Shown here: positions 3,008 through 59,121 of the stretch, in pieces
Numbering within the stretch: position 1 is the stretch's first letter
Layout: the number at the start of each line of letters is the position of its first letter
Assembly: GCA_026706345.1 (NCBI GenBank)
Contig: JAPOYX010000181.1
Location: forward strand, 1 to 64,000
DNA from: Gemmatimonadota bacterium
Lineage (GTDB): Bacteria; JAAXHH01
Direction: 5' to 3'
DNA length: 64,000 bases
Notes under the pieces: model-generated
The model's database searches: none
What the model was told of the DNA's origin: nothing
What the model saw: only the letters and a program-made list of their open reading frames with translations
Program-made: the position numbers and the translations under genes

Positions 3008-4654
3008 TCAGGCTACGGCTGCGCGGTTCCTGACGGATCTGAAGAGGACCAGCCCGATCGCACCCGTACCGATGATGATCATCAGCATATTAATAGCCCA
3101 ACCGACATAGGGAAGGCTCACGGCGATCAGCACCAGGACCAGCCCGACGAGCAACGACAGGGCCATGGAACCCGTATCCTGCTGTTTCGGCCGCAGCAAC
3201 GCGCTTCCCAGGAAGTGCGCCACGACGATCTTGGACACGTACAGGCCCAATGCCCAGACGGCAGCCATTACGAGTCCGGCCGGCAGACCGATGAGCGTCA
3301 CGCAGAGCAGGACCGCCGCAACCGGCATCACTATGAGGACCAGGGCTCCGACCCCCGCAGACAGCGCCATTTCGCCCAGGCCGTCGAGTGGCACGCGGCG
3401 CAGCGCCGGAAGCGCCCGGAGCAGAAGCATGCCCGATATGAATGCCGCGGCCAGCCACAGGGCCATGCGCACGAAAGTCCAGACCGACAGTAGTTCGCCC
3501 TCATCCCGATCCGGTTCGGGAACGTCGACGATCGTTTCGCCGACAACAGAAGCGGCGGAATCCATCTGCAGATTCTCCCCGGCCGGCAGCTCGACGTCGA
3601 GATTCCCGCCGATCGACGCAGACGAATGAACGGCCGCCAGACTACCAAAGAAAGTAACGTCCCGCTTCACCTCGCCCGTTACCGTAAGGGTGTTACCGAA
3701 CGCCGTCACGTTGCGGCCGACCGATCCGCCGACGTTGACATCTTCTGCAAATGCGAACAAGTCCCCCCCGATTGATGCGTCCCGTCTGGAGAGAATCGAC
3801 TGGGCGAATCCATAGATGCTCTGACCGACTGTATCTCCAATGCGAATCACCTGTCCGAACGCTGCGATTCCGCCTCCCACATCGCCATCAATTTCGATGG
3901 CCCTCCCGAAGGAATACACATCGCCATGGACGGCACCCACGATTTCGACCGACTGGGCGAACACGATCAGGTCCCCGGTCACCACGCCGTCGATTCGGGC
4001 CGTGCGACCGAAGACAATGAGCGTGTCGTCAATGATTTCGTCCGATTCTATGGAGATGTTTTCGCCGGAACGTGTTTCCATGGCCTCCGCCGGAGCAGAC
4101 AACCCCACTGCCAAGACCAGGCACCCGAGTAACTTCAAAGCTCCTGGTAATCTTCGTATCAGGACGAATACAGTACATAGCAGCATAATGGCAAACGCCG
4201 CGACACCAGCACTGCTGACCAGAGATTCCATGATCGAGCCTCCTTCCTGGATGAAGTAAAACCCTGAGCTGAATAGCAGGGACAGTTGTCCGGTAACGCC
4301 CAAAGGGCTGAGCCACTCAATGCTCCAAGGCAACTGCAAAGCCATTATCGAGCCAAGTCCCATCCTTAGCAGAGCCGCGAATACCGTGACCAGTCCCATC
4401 AATATCAAGGCATGGATTGGAGAAGGAGCATGGGCAGGATTCGTTTCCACCAGGAAGGCTTCGGTGTTCCCCAATACCCCAACGAGCGCATCCCGCTCCG
4501 TCTTCAATGCATGCACAAGGTCCCGGCACCGCGGGCAGCGGCTCAGATGATCTTCGAACTCGAGCGCTTCGGATCCGGATAACTCGCCGTCAGCATACAT
4601 CGAGGTCGTGAGTTCAGAAGGACAAGCCTCCTTGCTCACCTTTTCGTCCGTCAT
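3008..4654 (-). CDS. Anti-sigma factor fused to bactofilin-like beta-solenoid and membrane domain
   Basis: 548 residues. Residues 11-43 form a zf-HC2 anti-sigma zinc domain (C11, H36, C40, C43), expected to hold the partner sigma factor in the cytoplasm. Three hydrophobic segments follow (about 80-103, 147-168, 172-190). Residues about 195-365 are a run of short imperfect repeats of the type (I/V)DG.V.GD..VFG..V.I, resembling bactofilin/polymer-forming beta-solenoids. The C-terminal 150 residues hold about four more membrane segments. The start ATG overlaps the end of the upstream sigma gene (4651-4654), so the two are translationally coupled. A zinc anti-sigma domain carrying a solenoid sensor or scaffold is unusual. 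That the solenoid faces the periplasm is inferred from the membrane segments, not shown. Confidence 0.8.
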   Translation of the reverse strand: MTDEKVSKEACPSELTTSMYADGELSGSEALEFEDHLSRCPRCRDLVHALKTERDALVGVLGNTEAFLVETNPAHAPSPIHALILMGLVTVFAALLRMGLGSIMALQLPWSIEWLSPLGVTGQLSLLFSSGFYFIQEGGSIMESLVSSAGVAAFAIMLLCTVFVLIRRLPGALKLLGCLVLAVGLSAPAEAMETRSGENISIESDEIIDDTLIVFGRTARIDGVVTGDLIVFAQSVEIVGAVHGDVYSFGRAIEIDGDVGGGIAAFGQVIRIGDTVGQSIYGFAQSILSRRDASIGGDLFAFAEDVNVGGSVGRNVTAFGNTLTVTGEVKRDVTFFGSLAAVHSSASIGGNLDVELPAGENLQMDSAASVVGETIVDVPEPDRDEGELLSVWTFVRMALWLAAAFISGMLLLRALPALRRVPLDGLGEMALSAGVGALVLIVMPVAAVLLCVTLIGLPAGLVMAAVWALGLYVSKIVVAHFLGSALLRPKQQDTGSMALSLLVGLVLVLIAVSLPYVGWAINMLMIIIGTGAIGLVLFRSVRNRAAVA

Positions 4655-54363: not shown

Positions 54364-55668
54364 TCAGAATCCATCATCGCCGGGCAGGGCCACGGCGCGC
54401 GGGTCCATCTGCCGCAAACGTTCGTCCAGCAGCCTCTTGAGCTGGTTCAACTTGAGCCGGTGGGCCGCGAGTTCCTTTTCGTGTTCCATGATCATCTGCT
54501 GGATAAGACGAGGATCTTCGCGGGAGAGGGGGGCCTCGGCACCATCTTCGACGAAGAGGGAAGAGTCGGGTGAGTCAAGCGGTTTCGGCTGAGGTGCGAG
54601 GACCGTGTGCACGGTATTCTCCGTATCTCCGCGCAGGTATTTGATCTCGATCCGGGAACCGGCGGGAAGCGTGGTCACGAATTCGGCCAGGATGATGGGG
54701 TGGTTCATGGGTACGCCGTTTACGGCCAGCAGGATATCGCCCTTGCGAAGGCCGACCTTCATGGCCGGGCTGTCGGGATATACATCGGTAACTTCCATGC
54801 CTTCACCGGTACCCAGCATGATATTGCGGTCGCCGCCTACGCTGATGCTGTCCCATATCTTCTCCACGAACACGCCCAGCCAGCTGCGGCGGATTTCACC
54901 GTGTTCGATGAGCTGCCGGGCGAAGGTCTTTACGCGGTTTATGGGTATGACCGAGATCATGCCCGCGCCTTCTCCACCCCCCGCACTACCCGATGCGGAC
55001 GCCTGGCCCCGCGGGGAGTCGGCTACGAGACCCAGCAGACGGCCGTTCGTGGAAAACACGGCACCGCCGGACAAATCGCCGCCGACTACGGCGCTGACCT
55101 GCATCATGACATCTTCTTCCCGTACGCCGTTGACGATTCCCGTCGTCATCGACGATGGAAATCCATGGGCATTGTTCATTACCAGCACCCAGGACCCGGG
55201 GCTCGCGTCGTCGGAATCACCGAGACGCGCGGAATGGACGGACACGCTGTCCACCCGGATCACGGCGATGTTTGAAAGCATGTCGACACCGACGAGCTCC
55301 CCGAGACGGTACCGGCCATCCTGAAAGTTCACCAGGATATCGTGGGCATGGTCCACGACACCGGCCGTCGTGATGACGTAACCGTCTCTGTGGAGGACCA
55401 CGCCGGTACCAATGGAGCGTTCCCAGTCCGTGAAGGTCTGTCCGTTCAGCGAATGGATGAACTTCCGTTGCACGATCACGCTGGCAACCGTCGGCTCGAC
55501 GCGTTCCACGAGGCGGACGATCTCTTTTTCAAGGTTATGCAGGTAAGCGGTGGACTGGGCGTAAGTTCTGGGAGCGGAGTTCAGGTGCCAGAGGCAGACG
55601 AGCAGTGCGGCGCATATCACGGGACGATAGCGTTCGGTCCCTGTGCGGTTGGGTCGAGATCCAGGCAT
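54364..55668 (-). CDS. HtrA-like protein with degenerate catalytic triad
   Basis: 434 residues with an N-terminal export or anchor segment (about 17-38), a trypsin-like domain (about 50-215), a PDZ domain (about 265-350) and a charged helical tail (382-421). Aligned with DegP, the catalytic His (TNNHVV) is Gly103 (ITTAGVVD), the Asp (SDIAL) is Asn133 (LSNIAV), and only Ser200 (GDLSGG) is kept. A working serine protease is therefore unlikely; a binding, chaperone or sensor role fits better. It starts six bases after the anti-sigma stop, in one operon with the ECF sigma factor, where DegS- or MucD-type proteases are often found. Confidence 0.85.
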   Translation of the reverse strand: MPGSRPNRTGTERYRPVICAALLVCLWHLNSAPRTYAQSTAYLHNLEKEIVRLVERVEPTVASVIVQRKFIHSLNGQTFTDWERSIGTGVVLHRDGYVITTAGVVDHAHDILVNFQDGRYRLGELVGVDMLSNIAVIRVDSVSVHSARLGDSDDASPGSWVLVMNNAHGFPSSMTTGIVNGVREEDVMMQVSAVVGGDLSGGAVFSTNGRLLGLVADSPRGQASASGSAGGGEGAGMISVIPINRVKTFARQLIEHGEIRRSWLGVFVEKIWDSISVGGDRNIMLGTGEGMEVTDVYPDSPAMKVGLRKGDILLAVNGVPMNHPIILAEFVTTLPAGSRIEIKYLRGDTENTVHTVLAPQPKPLDSPDSSLFVEDGAEAPLSREDPRLIQQMIMEHEKELAAHRLKLNQLKRLLDERLRQMDPRAVALPGDDGF

Positions 55669-55674
55669 GTCTGT

Positions 55675-56562
55675 CTAGAACGAGATTCGAACGCGTCTGA
55701 TCGGGGCGGCCGGATCGGCTGGACCGCTTGGACCGGACTGACCGCCTGTACCGCGCAGGCTGTTCTCTTCGGTGGTACCGACCTGCAGCAGACGCTCTTC
55801 CGATTCGGATTGGGCCAGGCCGCCGTCTGTAACCAGGTCCCCACCGATGGACTCGGTGAACAGGGACGGATCGAGGGGCATACCCGTGCCTGACGAAACG
55901 GTTCGGATCCCATGGGTCGTGGGTTCCATGGTTCGAACCGTCATGACGCCCGGGCTGTCACCGGGAATTCGGGATGTGATAAAAGAGAGACTGGTTGCTG
56001 CCGGGGAGGGGAGATTCGTTACCTGTTCTGCATTCGGCGCCGGTTTTACCGCCAGGTGCGACGCAAGCCCGCGTTCGAGGGGAAAGGGCGAAATCGGATC
56101 CGGTGGGGCGAGTTCGGGTTCAAAAGGCGTCGGAAGGGAAACGGCCATGGAGGCGTTGGGCGGCGAATCGGTCCGGTCCGGAGGAGCGACCAGGCCCGCG
56201 AATCCACCGATCACGGTTATGGTGAGGATCAGGCTGGTCGCAAATACCAGTTGAACGGGGCGCTGCCGGCTCAGTTCGCCCAGTTCGGAAAAGGTCTCCG
56301 AAACGCGTCGCCACCAGGAAGCGGCGTACAGTTCACGGGCGATTTCTTTCGTCAGCAGGCTACTGAGCTGGGAGTCGAATTCAGGCGGAGGGGTTACAGA
56401 GGGAAGACTCTTCACCGCGCGGATGGAGCTTTCCATGTCCTTGATCTTGAGCCGGCATCGGGGACATCCGTTCAGGTGAAATCGCAACGCGTCTTCGTTT
56501 GCCCTGGACAACCGGCCATCAAGGTAGTCCGACATCTGCCTCTCGTAACCACTGCAATTCAA
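55675..56562 (-). CDS. Membrane-bound zinc anti-sigma factor
   Basis: 295 residues. The N-terminal zf-HC2 domain has C3, H29, C33 and C36; one membrane segment lies at about 103-127 (PVQLVFATSLILTITVIGGFAGLV). The remaining 165 residues are Pro/Ser/Thr-rich, of low complexity and probably periplasmic. It should hold the sigma factor encoded 16 bases upstream. The long disordered periplasmic tail would be a natural site for regulated cleavage. The TTG start at 56562 follows GGAGGAAGG. Confidence 0.85.
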   Translation of the reverse strand: MNCSGYERQMSDYLDGRLSRANEDALRFHLNGCPRCRLKIKDMESSIRAVKSLPSVTPPPEFDSQLSSLLTKEIARELYAASWWRRVSETFSELGELSRQRPVQLVFATSLILTITVIGGFAGLVAPPDRTDSPPNASMAVSLPTPFEPELAPPDPISPFPLERGLASHLAVKPAPNAEQVTNLPSPAATSLSFITSRIPGDSPGVMTVRTMEPTTHGIRTVSSGTGMPLDPSLFTESIGGDLVTDGGLAQSESEERLLQVGTTEENSLRGTGGQSGPSGPADPAAPIRRVRISF

Positions 56563-56578
56563 AACAACCTTCCTCCCG

Positions 56579-57226
56579 TCATAGTATCTCTACCTGCCAC
56601 TGCCGCAGCATTTCCTGTAATCTGAGCCGTCCCCGGTTCACCCTCGACTTGACGGTTCCCGTCGGACAGCGGAGGATCTCGCCGATCTCCTCATAGGACA
56701 GTTCTTCGATATCGCGCAAGACGACCACGGACTTGTATTTCTCCGGCAGTTGATCGATCGCGTGCTGAATGGCCCGGCCCAGTTCATTCTGTTCCAGATG
56801 ATCGCCGGGTCCCGCATTCGTGTCCGGCAGATCTATCCCTTCCCTCGAACTGTTTTCGTGGGGCGGAGCATTGAGGGAGAAAAACTGGCGGCGTTTACGC
56901 TTGCGCAACTCGCTCCGGGCCAGGTTGAGCGCGATCGTATAAATCCACGTGGACAGATTGGAGATCGCCTTGTAGTTGTGGCGGTTCCGGTATACTCTGA
57001 GAAACGTCTCCTGTACGAGGTCTTCCGCGCATTCCGTATTGTGGACCATGCGGTATACGCAGTTGTACAGCCTGGTGCGGTACCGGCCGACAATCACCTC
57101 GAAAGCGCGCACGTCGTCCTGCTGCACACGGTAGAACAGCATTTCATCCGACATGGTCAATTCGTCGAACACACCCGACTCGATATCGGACGCCTGTACC
57201 GCGTTTGTAGAGGTGTTTTCAGACAT
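56579..57226 (-). CDS. ECF RNA polymerase sigma factor (RpoE-like)
   Basis: 215 residues. Region 2 (FEVIVGRYRTRLYNCVYRMVHNTECAEDLVQETFLRVYRN, then LSTWIYTIALNLARSELRKRKR) and region 4 (LPEKYKSVVVLRDIEELSYEEIGEIL, then PTGTVKSRVNRGRLRLQEML) are intact. Start ATG 57226 is chosen because GGGAG lies eight bases upstream; ATG 57232 is only two bases from it. An ECF-type promoter (57249-57277) lies directly upstream, so the operon is probably autoregulated. Followed by the anti-sigma and HtrA-like genes. Confidence 0.92.
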   Translation of the reverse strand: MSENTSTNAVQASDIESGVFDELTMSDEMLFYRVQQDDVRAFEVIVGRYRTRLYNCVYRMVHNTECAEDLVQETFLRVYRNRHNYKAISNLSTWIYTIALNLARSELRKRKRRQFFSLNAPPHENSSREGIDLPDTNAGPGDHLEQNELGRAIQHAIDQLPEKYKSVVVLRDIEELSYEEIGEILRCPTGTVKSRVNRGRLRLQEMLRQWQVEIL

Positions 57227-57248
57227 GTTCATGTCTCCCATACCGCTT

Positions 57249-57277
57249 TATACGCTATAGCGGAGGGATCGGTTTCA
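57249..57277 (-). promoter_or_regulatory. ECF-type promoter, probable autoregulation of the sigma operon
   Basis: Reading leftward: TGAAAC (57277-57272), 17-base spacer, CGTATA (57254-57249). This is the AAC/CGT pattern of ECF promoters, close to the sigma-W type of Bacillus. Transcription would start about 16 bases before ATG 57226. Confidence 0.6.
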
Positions 57278-57441: not shown

Positions 57442-59121
57442 TCACGCCCGCATTTCGCTCACATCGTGGATCGTATACTGGTAGCCCTGTTCCGTCAGAA
57501 AAAGCTGCCGGTTCACGGCATAGTCCTGATCCAGGGTATTCCGGGTGATGAGCGAATAGAAAATCGCGGCAGAGCCGTCCGCCTTGGGCCGAAGGATCCG
57601 GCCCAGGCGCTGGGCCTCCTCCTGGCGGGAACCGAACGTGCCCGATATCTGTATCGCCACGTTGGCGTCGGGCAGATCGATGGCGAAGTTGGCGACCTTG
57701 GACACCACCAGACGTTTGAGCTCTCCGCTCCTGAACCTCGAATACAGGTCCAGGCGGGCCCGCAGGGGCGTGCTGCCGGTGATGAGGGGAAACTCGAACA
57801 ACGCGGCGAGCTGCTTGAGCTGTCTCACGTACAGTCCGATGATCAGGACCTGGTCCGAGGGATGTTGTTCCAGCAGGGCGCGGATGATCTCCGTCTTCCG
57901 GCTGTTTTCAGAGGCGATCCTGAACTTCTCCCGGCGATTGGCCACGGCGTAGGACATGCGCCGGGCTTCGGGCAGGTCTACCCGGATTTCGCGGCAGTAC
58001 GCCTCCGCGATCCAGCCCTGCCGCTCGAGCAGCTTCCACGGCATGTCGTATCTGCGGGGACCGATGAGGCTGAAGACGTCGTCCTCGCGGCCGTCTTCAC
58101 GAACCAGCGTCGCCGTGAGCCCGAGTCGCCGTCGCGCCTGTATTTCGGCCGTGTAACGAAAGACAGGAGCCGGGAGCAGATGAACCTCGTCGTAGATGAT
58201 GAGGCCCCAGCCCTTCTGGTCGAAGAGGCCGAAATGCTCGAATTCGTCCCCCCTGCTCTTCCGGTAGGTCAAAATCTGGTAGGTGGCCAGCGTAACGGGC
58301 CGGATCTGCTTCGTTTCACCGGAATACTCGCCGATGTGCTCTTCCGGCAGCGAGGTCTTCTCCAGCAGTTCCTCCCGCCACTGGCGCAGCGCCACCGTGT
58401 TGGCCGTCAGCACGAGGGTGTGACACTTCAGGGCCGCCATGGCGCCGAGGGCCACGACGGTCTTCCCCGCACCGCAGGGCAGCACGATGACCCCGTTGCC
58501 TCCCTGCGGTTCGCCGTTCATGTGGAACGCGCCGACCGCGTCCAGCTGGTAGTCCCGCATGGTGAAGGATTTCCGGTCGCCGGGAGACGTGCGCAGGTTG
58601 ATCTCCAGCGGGGCGCCTTCGACGTATCCCGCCAGGTCCTCCACAGGAAATCCGACTTTGATCAGGGCCTGCTTTATGTGACCGCGGAACCGGTCTCCCA
58701 CCTGCACCCTTCGCTCGTCCAGGGGCTGCGCGAGGAACTGCTTGACCGAGGGGAGTCCGGAAACCTCCGCGATCAGGGCGGCATCGTCGGAAGCGAGGAC
58801 AAGCCTGCCGTCCTCCTTATGCAGCCGGAGCTGGCCGTACCGGGCGATGAAATCGATGATCTCGCGGCGGATGTTCTGGGGGATCTCGTACTTGCTCAGG
58901 CTTTCCAGCGATTCGAGTACGCCGTCCGCATCCATGCCCGCCGACGCGGCGTTCCACAGGGACAGGGGGCTCAGCCGGTACACGTGGATGTGCTCAGGGG
59001 ACTTTTCCAATTCCGCGAAACGGGCCAGCGCGTCCCGGGCGTCTTCGTAGCGCGGATGGTCCACTTCGACGAGGATGGTCCGGTCGCTCTGAACGATCAG
59101 TGGATTCTGCAGGTCTGGCAA
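57442..59121 (-). CDS. XPB/Ssl2-like DNA repair helicase
   Basis: 559 residues. An N-terminal domain with HVYRLSPLSLWNAASAG (about 46-62), then the superfamily 2 helicase core: Walker A PCGAGKT (215-221), DEVH (311-314), GLTATLVREDGREDD and the motif VI region QRLGRILRPK. This is the bacterial XPB-type helicase family, thought to unwind DNA in repair or transcription. TTG 59121 is used because it opens the conserved N-terminus; only a weak GGGGG precedes it. It closes the leftward purD-tsaC-glycosyltransferase-helicase set (15-base gap). Confidence 0.92.
   Translation of the reverse strand: MPDLQNPLIVQSDRTILVEVDHPRYEDARDALARFAELEKSPEHIHVYRLSPLSLWNAASAGMDADGVLESLESLSKYEIPQNIRREIIDFIARYGQLRLHKEDGRLVLASDDAALIAEVSGLPSVKQFLAQPLDERRVQVGDRFRGHIKQALIKVGFPVEDLAGYVEGAPLEINLRTSPGDRKSFTMRDYQLDAVGAFHMNGEPQGGNGVIVLPCGAGKTVVALGAMAALKCHTLVLTANTVALRQWREELLEKTSLPEEHIGEYSGETKQIRPVTLATYQILTYRKSRGDEFEHFGLFDQKGWGLIIYDEVHLLPAPVFRYTAEIQARRRLGLTATLVREDGREDDVFSLIGPRRYDMPWKLLERQGWIAEAYCREIRVDLPEARRMSYAVANRREKFRIASENSRKTEIIRALLEQHPSDQVLIIGLYVRQLKQLAALFEFPLITGSTPLRARLDLYSRFRSGELKRLVVSKVANFAIDLPDANVAIQISGTFGSRQEEAQRLGRILRPKADGSAAIFYSLITRNTLDQDYAVNRQLFLTEQGYQYTIHDVSEMRA

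Follow-up and report, generated by a model that had tools for sequence, protein, structure and literature searches.

Introduction

Most of the detailed knowledge of envelope-stress sensing comes from the proteobacterial DegS/RseB systems. In the mycobacterial SigE-RseA-HtrA system, the genes follow the order ECF sigma factor, anti-sigma factor, htrA, as they do at the locus described here, and the HtrA protein is thought to have its catalytic triad. In the SigW/RsiW system of Bacillus subtilis, the promoter consensus is TGAAAC / CGTA, RsiW is cut by PrsW, and the operon is not known to include a partner gene for an HtrA.

The circuits closest to the present locus are RpoE/RseA/RseB/DegS of Escherichia coli and AlgU/MucA/MucB/AlgW of Pseudomonas, which share with it an ECF sigma factor, a membrane anti-sigma factor, and a downstream gene for a periplasmic non-protease. 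Both circuits have a PDZ-bearing HtrA in the pathway and use C-terminal YxF or WVF peptides as the signal, and tails of these kinds are bound by the PDZ domains of DegS and AlgW (PMC8545111). HtrA pseudoproteases are known from magnetotactic bacteria, where MamO and inactive copies of MamE are under selection and stand beside intact paralogues, as does the protein studied here (PMC4794232).

Here we describe an operon in which the gene that follows the anti-sigma factor gene encodes an HtrA fold that lacks the catalytic histidine. A search of the openly licensed literature found no description of an ECF-linked HtrA pseudoprotease, and the family to which the protein belongs has apparently not been described before.

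Results and Discussion

Catalytic positions of the HtrA-like protein

The window, as we call the whole 64,000-nucleotide stretch of Gemmatimonadota DNA that was analyzed, comes from a draft genome of 4.49 Mb in 293 contigs. A first-pass annotation had placed an HtrA-like protein at 54364-55668 and reported that Gly103 and Asn133 replace the catalytic His and Asp of DegP, respectively, with Ser200 and the PDZ domain kept. The open reading frame was confirmed, matching Trypsin_2 (6e-19), PDZ, and the structures of E. coli DegP (8e-33). Trypsin_2 and PDZ are its sole Pfam matches, both above cut-off, and the RseB fold is absent from it. The features of the gene and its product are as follows.

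55668..54364, minus strand: open reading frame of the ECF-linked putative HtrA pseudoprotease, 434 aa
55558..55668, minus strand: predicted N-terminal signal peptide, about residues 1-37, read from the translation
55027..55410, minus strand: degenerate Trypsin_2 domain, residues 87-214 (Pfam, 6.1e-19)
55360..55362, minus strand: Gly103 at the catalytic His position (alignment to DegP and orthologues)
55270..55272, minus strand: Asn133 at the catalytic Asp position (alignment to DegP and orthologues)
55075..55077, minus strand: Asp198 at the oxyanion-hole Gly, chymotrypsin position 193 (alignment)
55069..55071, minus strand: Ser200, retained here; most family members have another residue at this position
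54589..54903, minus strand: single PDZ domain, about residues 256-360 (Pfam PDZ_6, 1.5e-11)
54409..54513, minus strand: C-terminal helix (residues 386-420), probably a coiled coil; the best-scored part of an otherwise poor model

The three motifs align unambiguously: TNNHVV of DegP corresponds to TTAGVV (Gly103), DPRSDIAL to DMLSNIAV (Asn133), and NRGNSGGAL to GGDLSGGAV (Ser200). The three assignments therefore stand, although the annotation had overlooked a further loss, that of the oxyanion glycine, which lies two residues N-terminal of Ser200 and is Asp198 here. It had also named a His and an Asp placed elsewhere in the active site as grounds for doubt; the protease domain has no other His that is conserved across the aligned family, and a relocated catalytic His was rejected for this reason. 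From these positions, we infer that the window protein is catalytically dead.

The predicted signal peptide, with the hydrophobic stretch VICAALLVCLWHL and a possible cleavage site after TYA in the translation, points to a periplasmic location. The carboxylate-binding loop of the PDZ domain, WLGV (263-266), is intact. The C-terminal helix occupies the place of the second PDZ domain of DegP, and coiled-coil-like ends are found in most family members; an AlphaFold model built from eight sequences had a pLDDT of 39 and was not used for fold search. The protein thus resembles DegP, DegQ, and MucD (HtrA family S1C) in having a trypsin-like domain followed by PDZ but differs from them in lacking the His-Asp-Ser triad, and the family as a whole is set apart from them by the absence of the catalytic His, its one PDZ domain, and the C-terminal helix that replaces PDZ2. 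MamO, like the window protein, has a residue other than Gly at the oxyanion position (PMC4794232). Unlike the window protein, MamO keeps His and Asp and has a Thr nucleophile, di-His metal binding, a transporter domain, and no sigma-factor link; against the NCBIfam MamO model, the window protein scored 17 bits, far below the cut-off of 800.

The operon and its promoter

The genes and elements upstream of the HtrA gene are as follows.

55675..56562, minus strand: membrane anti-sigma factor, 295 aa (zf-HC2, 2.3e-9)
56452-56556, minus strand: zf-HC2 domain of the anti-sigma factor (Pfam)
55678..55695, minus strand: C-terminal tail of the anti-sigma factor, RVRISF-COOH, an OMP-like PDZ-ligand motif
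56579..57241, minus strand: ECF sigma factor, 220 aa (SigW is the top NCBIfam model, with a score under its cut-off)
57277..57248, minus strand: TGAAAC-N17-CGTATAA, an ECF-type promoter immediately 5' of the sigma gene

The ECF sigma, anti-sigma, and HtrA genes lie in this order on the same strand, separated by gaps of 16 and 6 bases. The promoter resembles the SigW consensus and is the sole zero-mismatch match within the window; each of the 13 phylum relatives that were scanned has a similar element, with small changes, ahead of its ECF gene. Given this conserved element, the three genes very likely form one autoregulated operon, in agreement with the earlier proposal that the HtrA gene is cotranscribed with the genes for a sigma factor and its membrane-bound antagonist. 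A scan with a simple pattern found no SigW-type promoter outside the window's phylum, and such a promoter is not supported as a family-wide trait. Six bases separate the predicted −10 box, CGTATAA, from the sigma ATG (57239-57277, minus strand), so the sigma transcript may be leaderless, or translation may begin at either of two additional ATGs in the first 20 bases.

The anti-sigma factor has one transmembrane segment, a hydrophobic stretch near residues 107-125, and a periplasmic part that is rich in Pro, Ser, Thr, and Gly. As in RpoE-type circuits, an ECF sigma factor and a single-TM anti-sigma factor are thus encoded together behind an ECF-type promoter. Unlike in the RpoE and AlgU circuits, the third gene encodes an HtrA fold without catalysis and the operon has no RseB-fold gene, while the anti-sigma factor, whose domain is zf-HC2, itself carries an OMP-like C terminus.

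Conservation within the phylum

The HtrA gene is present in 14 of 16 genomes of the phylum, the window's included, and is split over two contigs in one of them. The order ECF sigma gene, anti-sigma gene, HtrA gene is kept in the phylum. Absence of the gene from two genomes (G010 and G015) is unsupported, as in both the contig with the sigma gene ends inside the anti-sigma gene. The catalytic His is missing in every one of the 13 orthologues from other genomes of the phylum. Asn133 is confined to the window species and the two species nearest to it, most other orthologues of the genus having Asp, and the position of Ser200 is occupied by Thr in several phylum orthologues. The dN/dS values to congeners are 0.13-0.24, with the protease domain under purifying selection, and because of these values we conclude that the window gene is functional and not decaying. 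The first-pass annotation had judged a sequencing error unlikely; the 13 orthologues without His, taken with the dN/dS values, exclude both such an error and a decaying gene.

Spread of the family across phyla

Profile searches were run over 384 unevenly sampled genomes with profiles (A1, A2, and A4) built from His-less proteins. Further members were found in G073, G117, G149, G331, G335 and G060 (which belong to one phylum), and G151 and G288 (which belong to one family); G073 and G117 are each the single genome of its phylum in the sampled set. The family thus occurs in at least four phyla, the window's and at least three others, plus three further lineages, and in the phylum of G335 about 55 of 82 genomes have a full-length match of the family type, as judged by query coverage. 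A clear score gap (1e-102 versus 1e-87) separates the family from ordinary HtrA proteins. In those members outside the phylum that were examined, the ECF gene and, where readable, the anti-sigma gene lie directly upstream. Trypsin_2 was matched by all 25 sampled members, and the family profile matched the solved DegP, DegQ, and DegS structures at 1e-53 or better and a DegP-like protein at 1.6e-87.

None of 72 distinct ECF-linked HtrA proteins has the catalytic His, which is replaced by Ser in 45, by Gly in 15, and by other residues in 12. The catalytic Asp is found in 15 of them and the catalytic Ser likewise in 15; the nucleophile position holds Asn, Ala, Ile, Val, Gly, or Leu in 49 and Thr in 8, and the oxyanion Gly that the window protein has lost is retained in 62. 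By comparison, 63 unlinked HtrA proteins have His in 59 cases, Asp in 59, and Ser in 60, and the four that lack His are family members on contigs cut off short of the ECF gene, or fragments. The trait fixed in the family is therefore the loss of His, with Asp and Ser drifting, and a pseudoprotease that keeps its Ser was rejected as the family trait. The annotation had treated two replacements beside a kept Ser as the hallmark of the protein. The loss of His proved universal, whereas the change at Asp is recent and the Ser dispensable; similarly, where it had asked whether Gly and Asn are conserved in homologues, His is lost throughout (72/72) but Asn133 is confined to three sister species.

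When a tree was built without the catalytic columns, one branch (SH-aLRT 97) parted 67 pseudoproteases from 45 intact HtrA proteins; given this single branch, His may have been lost once, in an ancient event, the tree being unrooted. The family is a clear case of old, widespread loss of catalysis among HtrA proteins, and it calls for caution with automatic annotation, which would label all its members serine endopeptidases.

The anti-sigma tail and the PDZ groove

The anti-sigma factor encoded upstream ends in an aromatic residue in 71 of 75 cases (F in 59, Y in 11, and W in 1, the G331 protein ending RGGW), and V or I stands at position −3 in 50 of 73. The four nonaromatic rows comprise two for which no upstream open reading frame was found, the L054 row, where the actual anti-sigma end is RVSF, and G073 (L103:7073-7780, minus strand), the only true exception, which ends TVTFSP, two residues following the motif. 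For comparison, 16 of the genomes supplied 62 other zf-HC2 proteins, of which 2 end in F and none in Y; the Fisher p value for this difference, 2.6e-31, is descriptive only, as the rows share ancestry. Within the genus and G013, no hexamer of the periplasmic part is better kept than the final six residues (0.97), which follow a variable linker (0.65). On the side of the presumptive receptor, 71 of 72 members have a carboxylate-binding loop of the WLGV type that can be read in the PDZ domain. In eight of these genomes, F is the last residue of most of the Omp85 proteins that were read.

Taken together, tail and groove lead us to infer that the PDZ domain of the pseudoprotease binds the carboxyl tail of the anti-sigma factor. 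Capture of the anti-sigma factor by PDZ is the most specific option for the function of the protein because the anti-sigma factor has a PDZ-ligand-like carboxyl tail.

A proposed non-proteolytic sensor and its rivals

The first-pass annotation had listed sensing, shielding, and chaperone roles without preference and without having seen the tail; of these, sensing or shielding fits. The window protein matches RseB/MucB in operon position and in lacking a triad, and the tail suggests that it may, like them, bind the anti-sigma factor; its best reading would be as an RseB-like non-cutting sensor on an HtrA fold. We lean, by a modest degree, toward a model in which the secreted dead HtrA is a non-proteolytic sensor or regulator whose PDZ domain holds the anti-sigma tail and shields it until OMP tails compete. 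In the resting cell, the PDZ domain would hold the tail (RVRISF here; [VI]xF/Y generally), and the bound pseudoprotease would shield the periplasmic part of the anti-sigma factor from the site-1 protease, the position taken by RseB/MucB in the RpoE circuit. Misfolded OMPs, which end in similar tails, would compete for the PDZ groove as they build up; the anti-sigma factor, once set free, would be cut by a true membrane HtrA and RseP, and the freed sigma factor would transcribe its own operon. The window's genome has intact HtrA proteins and an RseP-like M50 protease. One of the intact HtrA proteins, encoded at L057:5732-7117 (minus strand), has one PDZ domain and a hydrophobic anchor at its N terminus and is the strongest candidate for the part of a site-1 protease like DegS. 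This anchored HtrA and the RseP-like protease could be available to cut the anti-sigma factor. We extend the model only tentatively to the clade as a whole, whose members over several phyla would be PDZ receptors for an OMP-mimicking anti-sigma tail, with OMP tails activating the sigma factor by competition and not through activation of an HtrA.

The main rival, which we consider unlikely, makes the pseudoprotease a positive factor that captures the anti-sigma tail with its PDZ domain and presents the anti-sigma factor to an intact membrane HtrA, such that loss of the pseudoprotease would lock the switch off. The conservation of tail and PDZ fits presentation and shielding equally well, intact HtrA proteins occur in the same genomes, and there is a precedent in MamO, an HtrA pseudoprotease that promotes MamE-dependent proteolysis (PMC4794232). 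Against it, the soluble non-protease of the best-studied sigma operon, RseB/MucB, suppresses cleavage (PMC8545111), and the sequences give no sign of contact between the pseudoprotease and an intact HtrA. It might also be that the tail is read by the PDZ domain of the intact membrane HtrA and not by that of the pseudoprotease.

A little less probable again is that the protein is a mere member of the regulon, produced in response to envelope stress as a periplasmic chaperone that does no cutting and has no direct contact with the anti-sigma factor. The ECF-type promoter of the operon is in keeping with this, and DegP is a chaperone as well as a protease. Such a role leaves unexplained, however, why the PDZ-ligand-like tail occurs when the HtrA gene adjoins and otherwise does not, and why the His-less form is strictly linked to ECF genes.

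There is a slim chance that the loss of His and the ECF linkage are in part artefacts of searching with profiles that came from His-less proteins and that intact ECF-linked HtrA proteins are commoner than we saw, as the mycobacterial sigE-rseA-htrA genes, an ECF operon with an HtrA thought to be intact, would suggest; yet the same searches recovered ordinary HtrA proteins in bulk, none of those examined was ECF linked, and the tree parts the two sets even without the catalytic columns. That the protein still cuts, by substrate assistance or with Ser or Thr and another base, is highly improbable despite the retained Ser200 and the well-kept fold of the window protein, because His and the oxyanion Gly are missing and Ser is variable (replaced in 49 of 72 members, with Thr in 8 more), no other His is conserved, and a residue other than Gly at the position of Asp198 blocks the oxyanion hole in MamO (PMC4794232).

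If the shielding model is true, these little-studied phyla have a second solution to envelope-stress sensing, in which the HtrA fold has been turned into a pure sensor and the last residues of the anti-sigma factor mimic the stress signal.

Surroundings of the operon

The gene order XPB-like helicase, ECF sigma factor, anti-sigma factor, HtrA, aldo-keto reductase, M20 peptidase, DUF1080 is found genus-wide. In the window, the XPB/ERCC3-like helicase gene (57442-59121, minus strand) lies directly upstream of the operon, and its synteny extends across the genus and to G013 and G014. The window has a further zf-HC2 match at 4523-4600 (minus strand), inside a 634-aa open frame.
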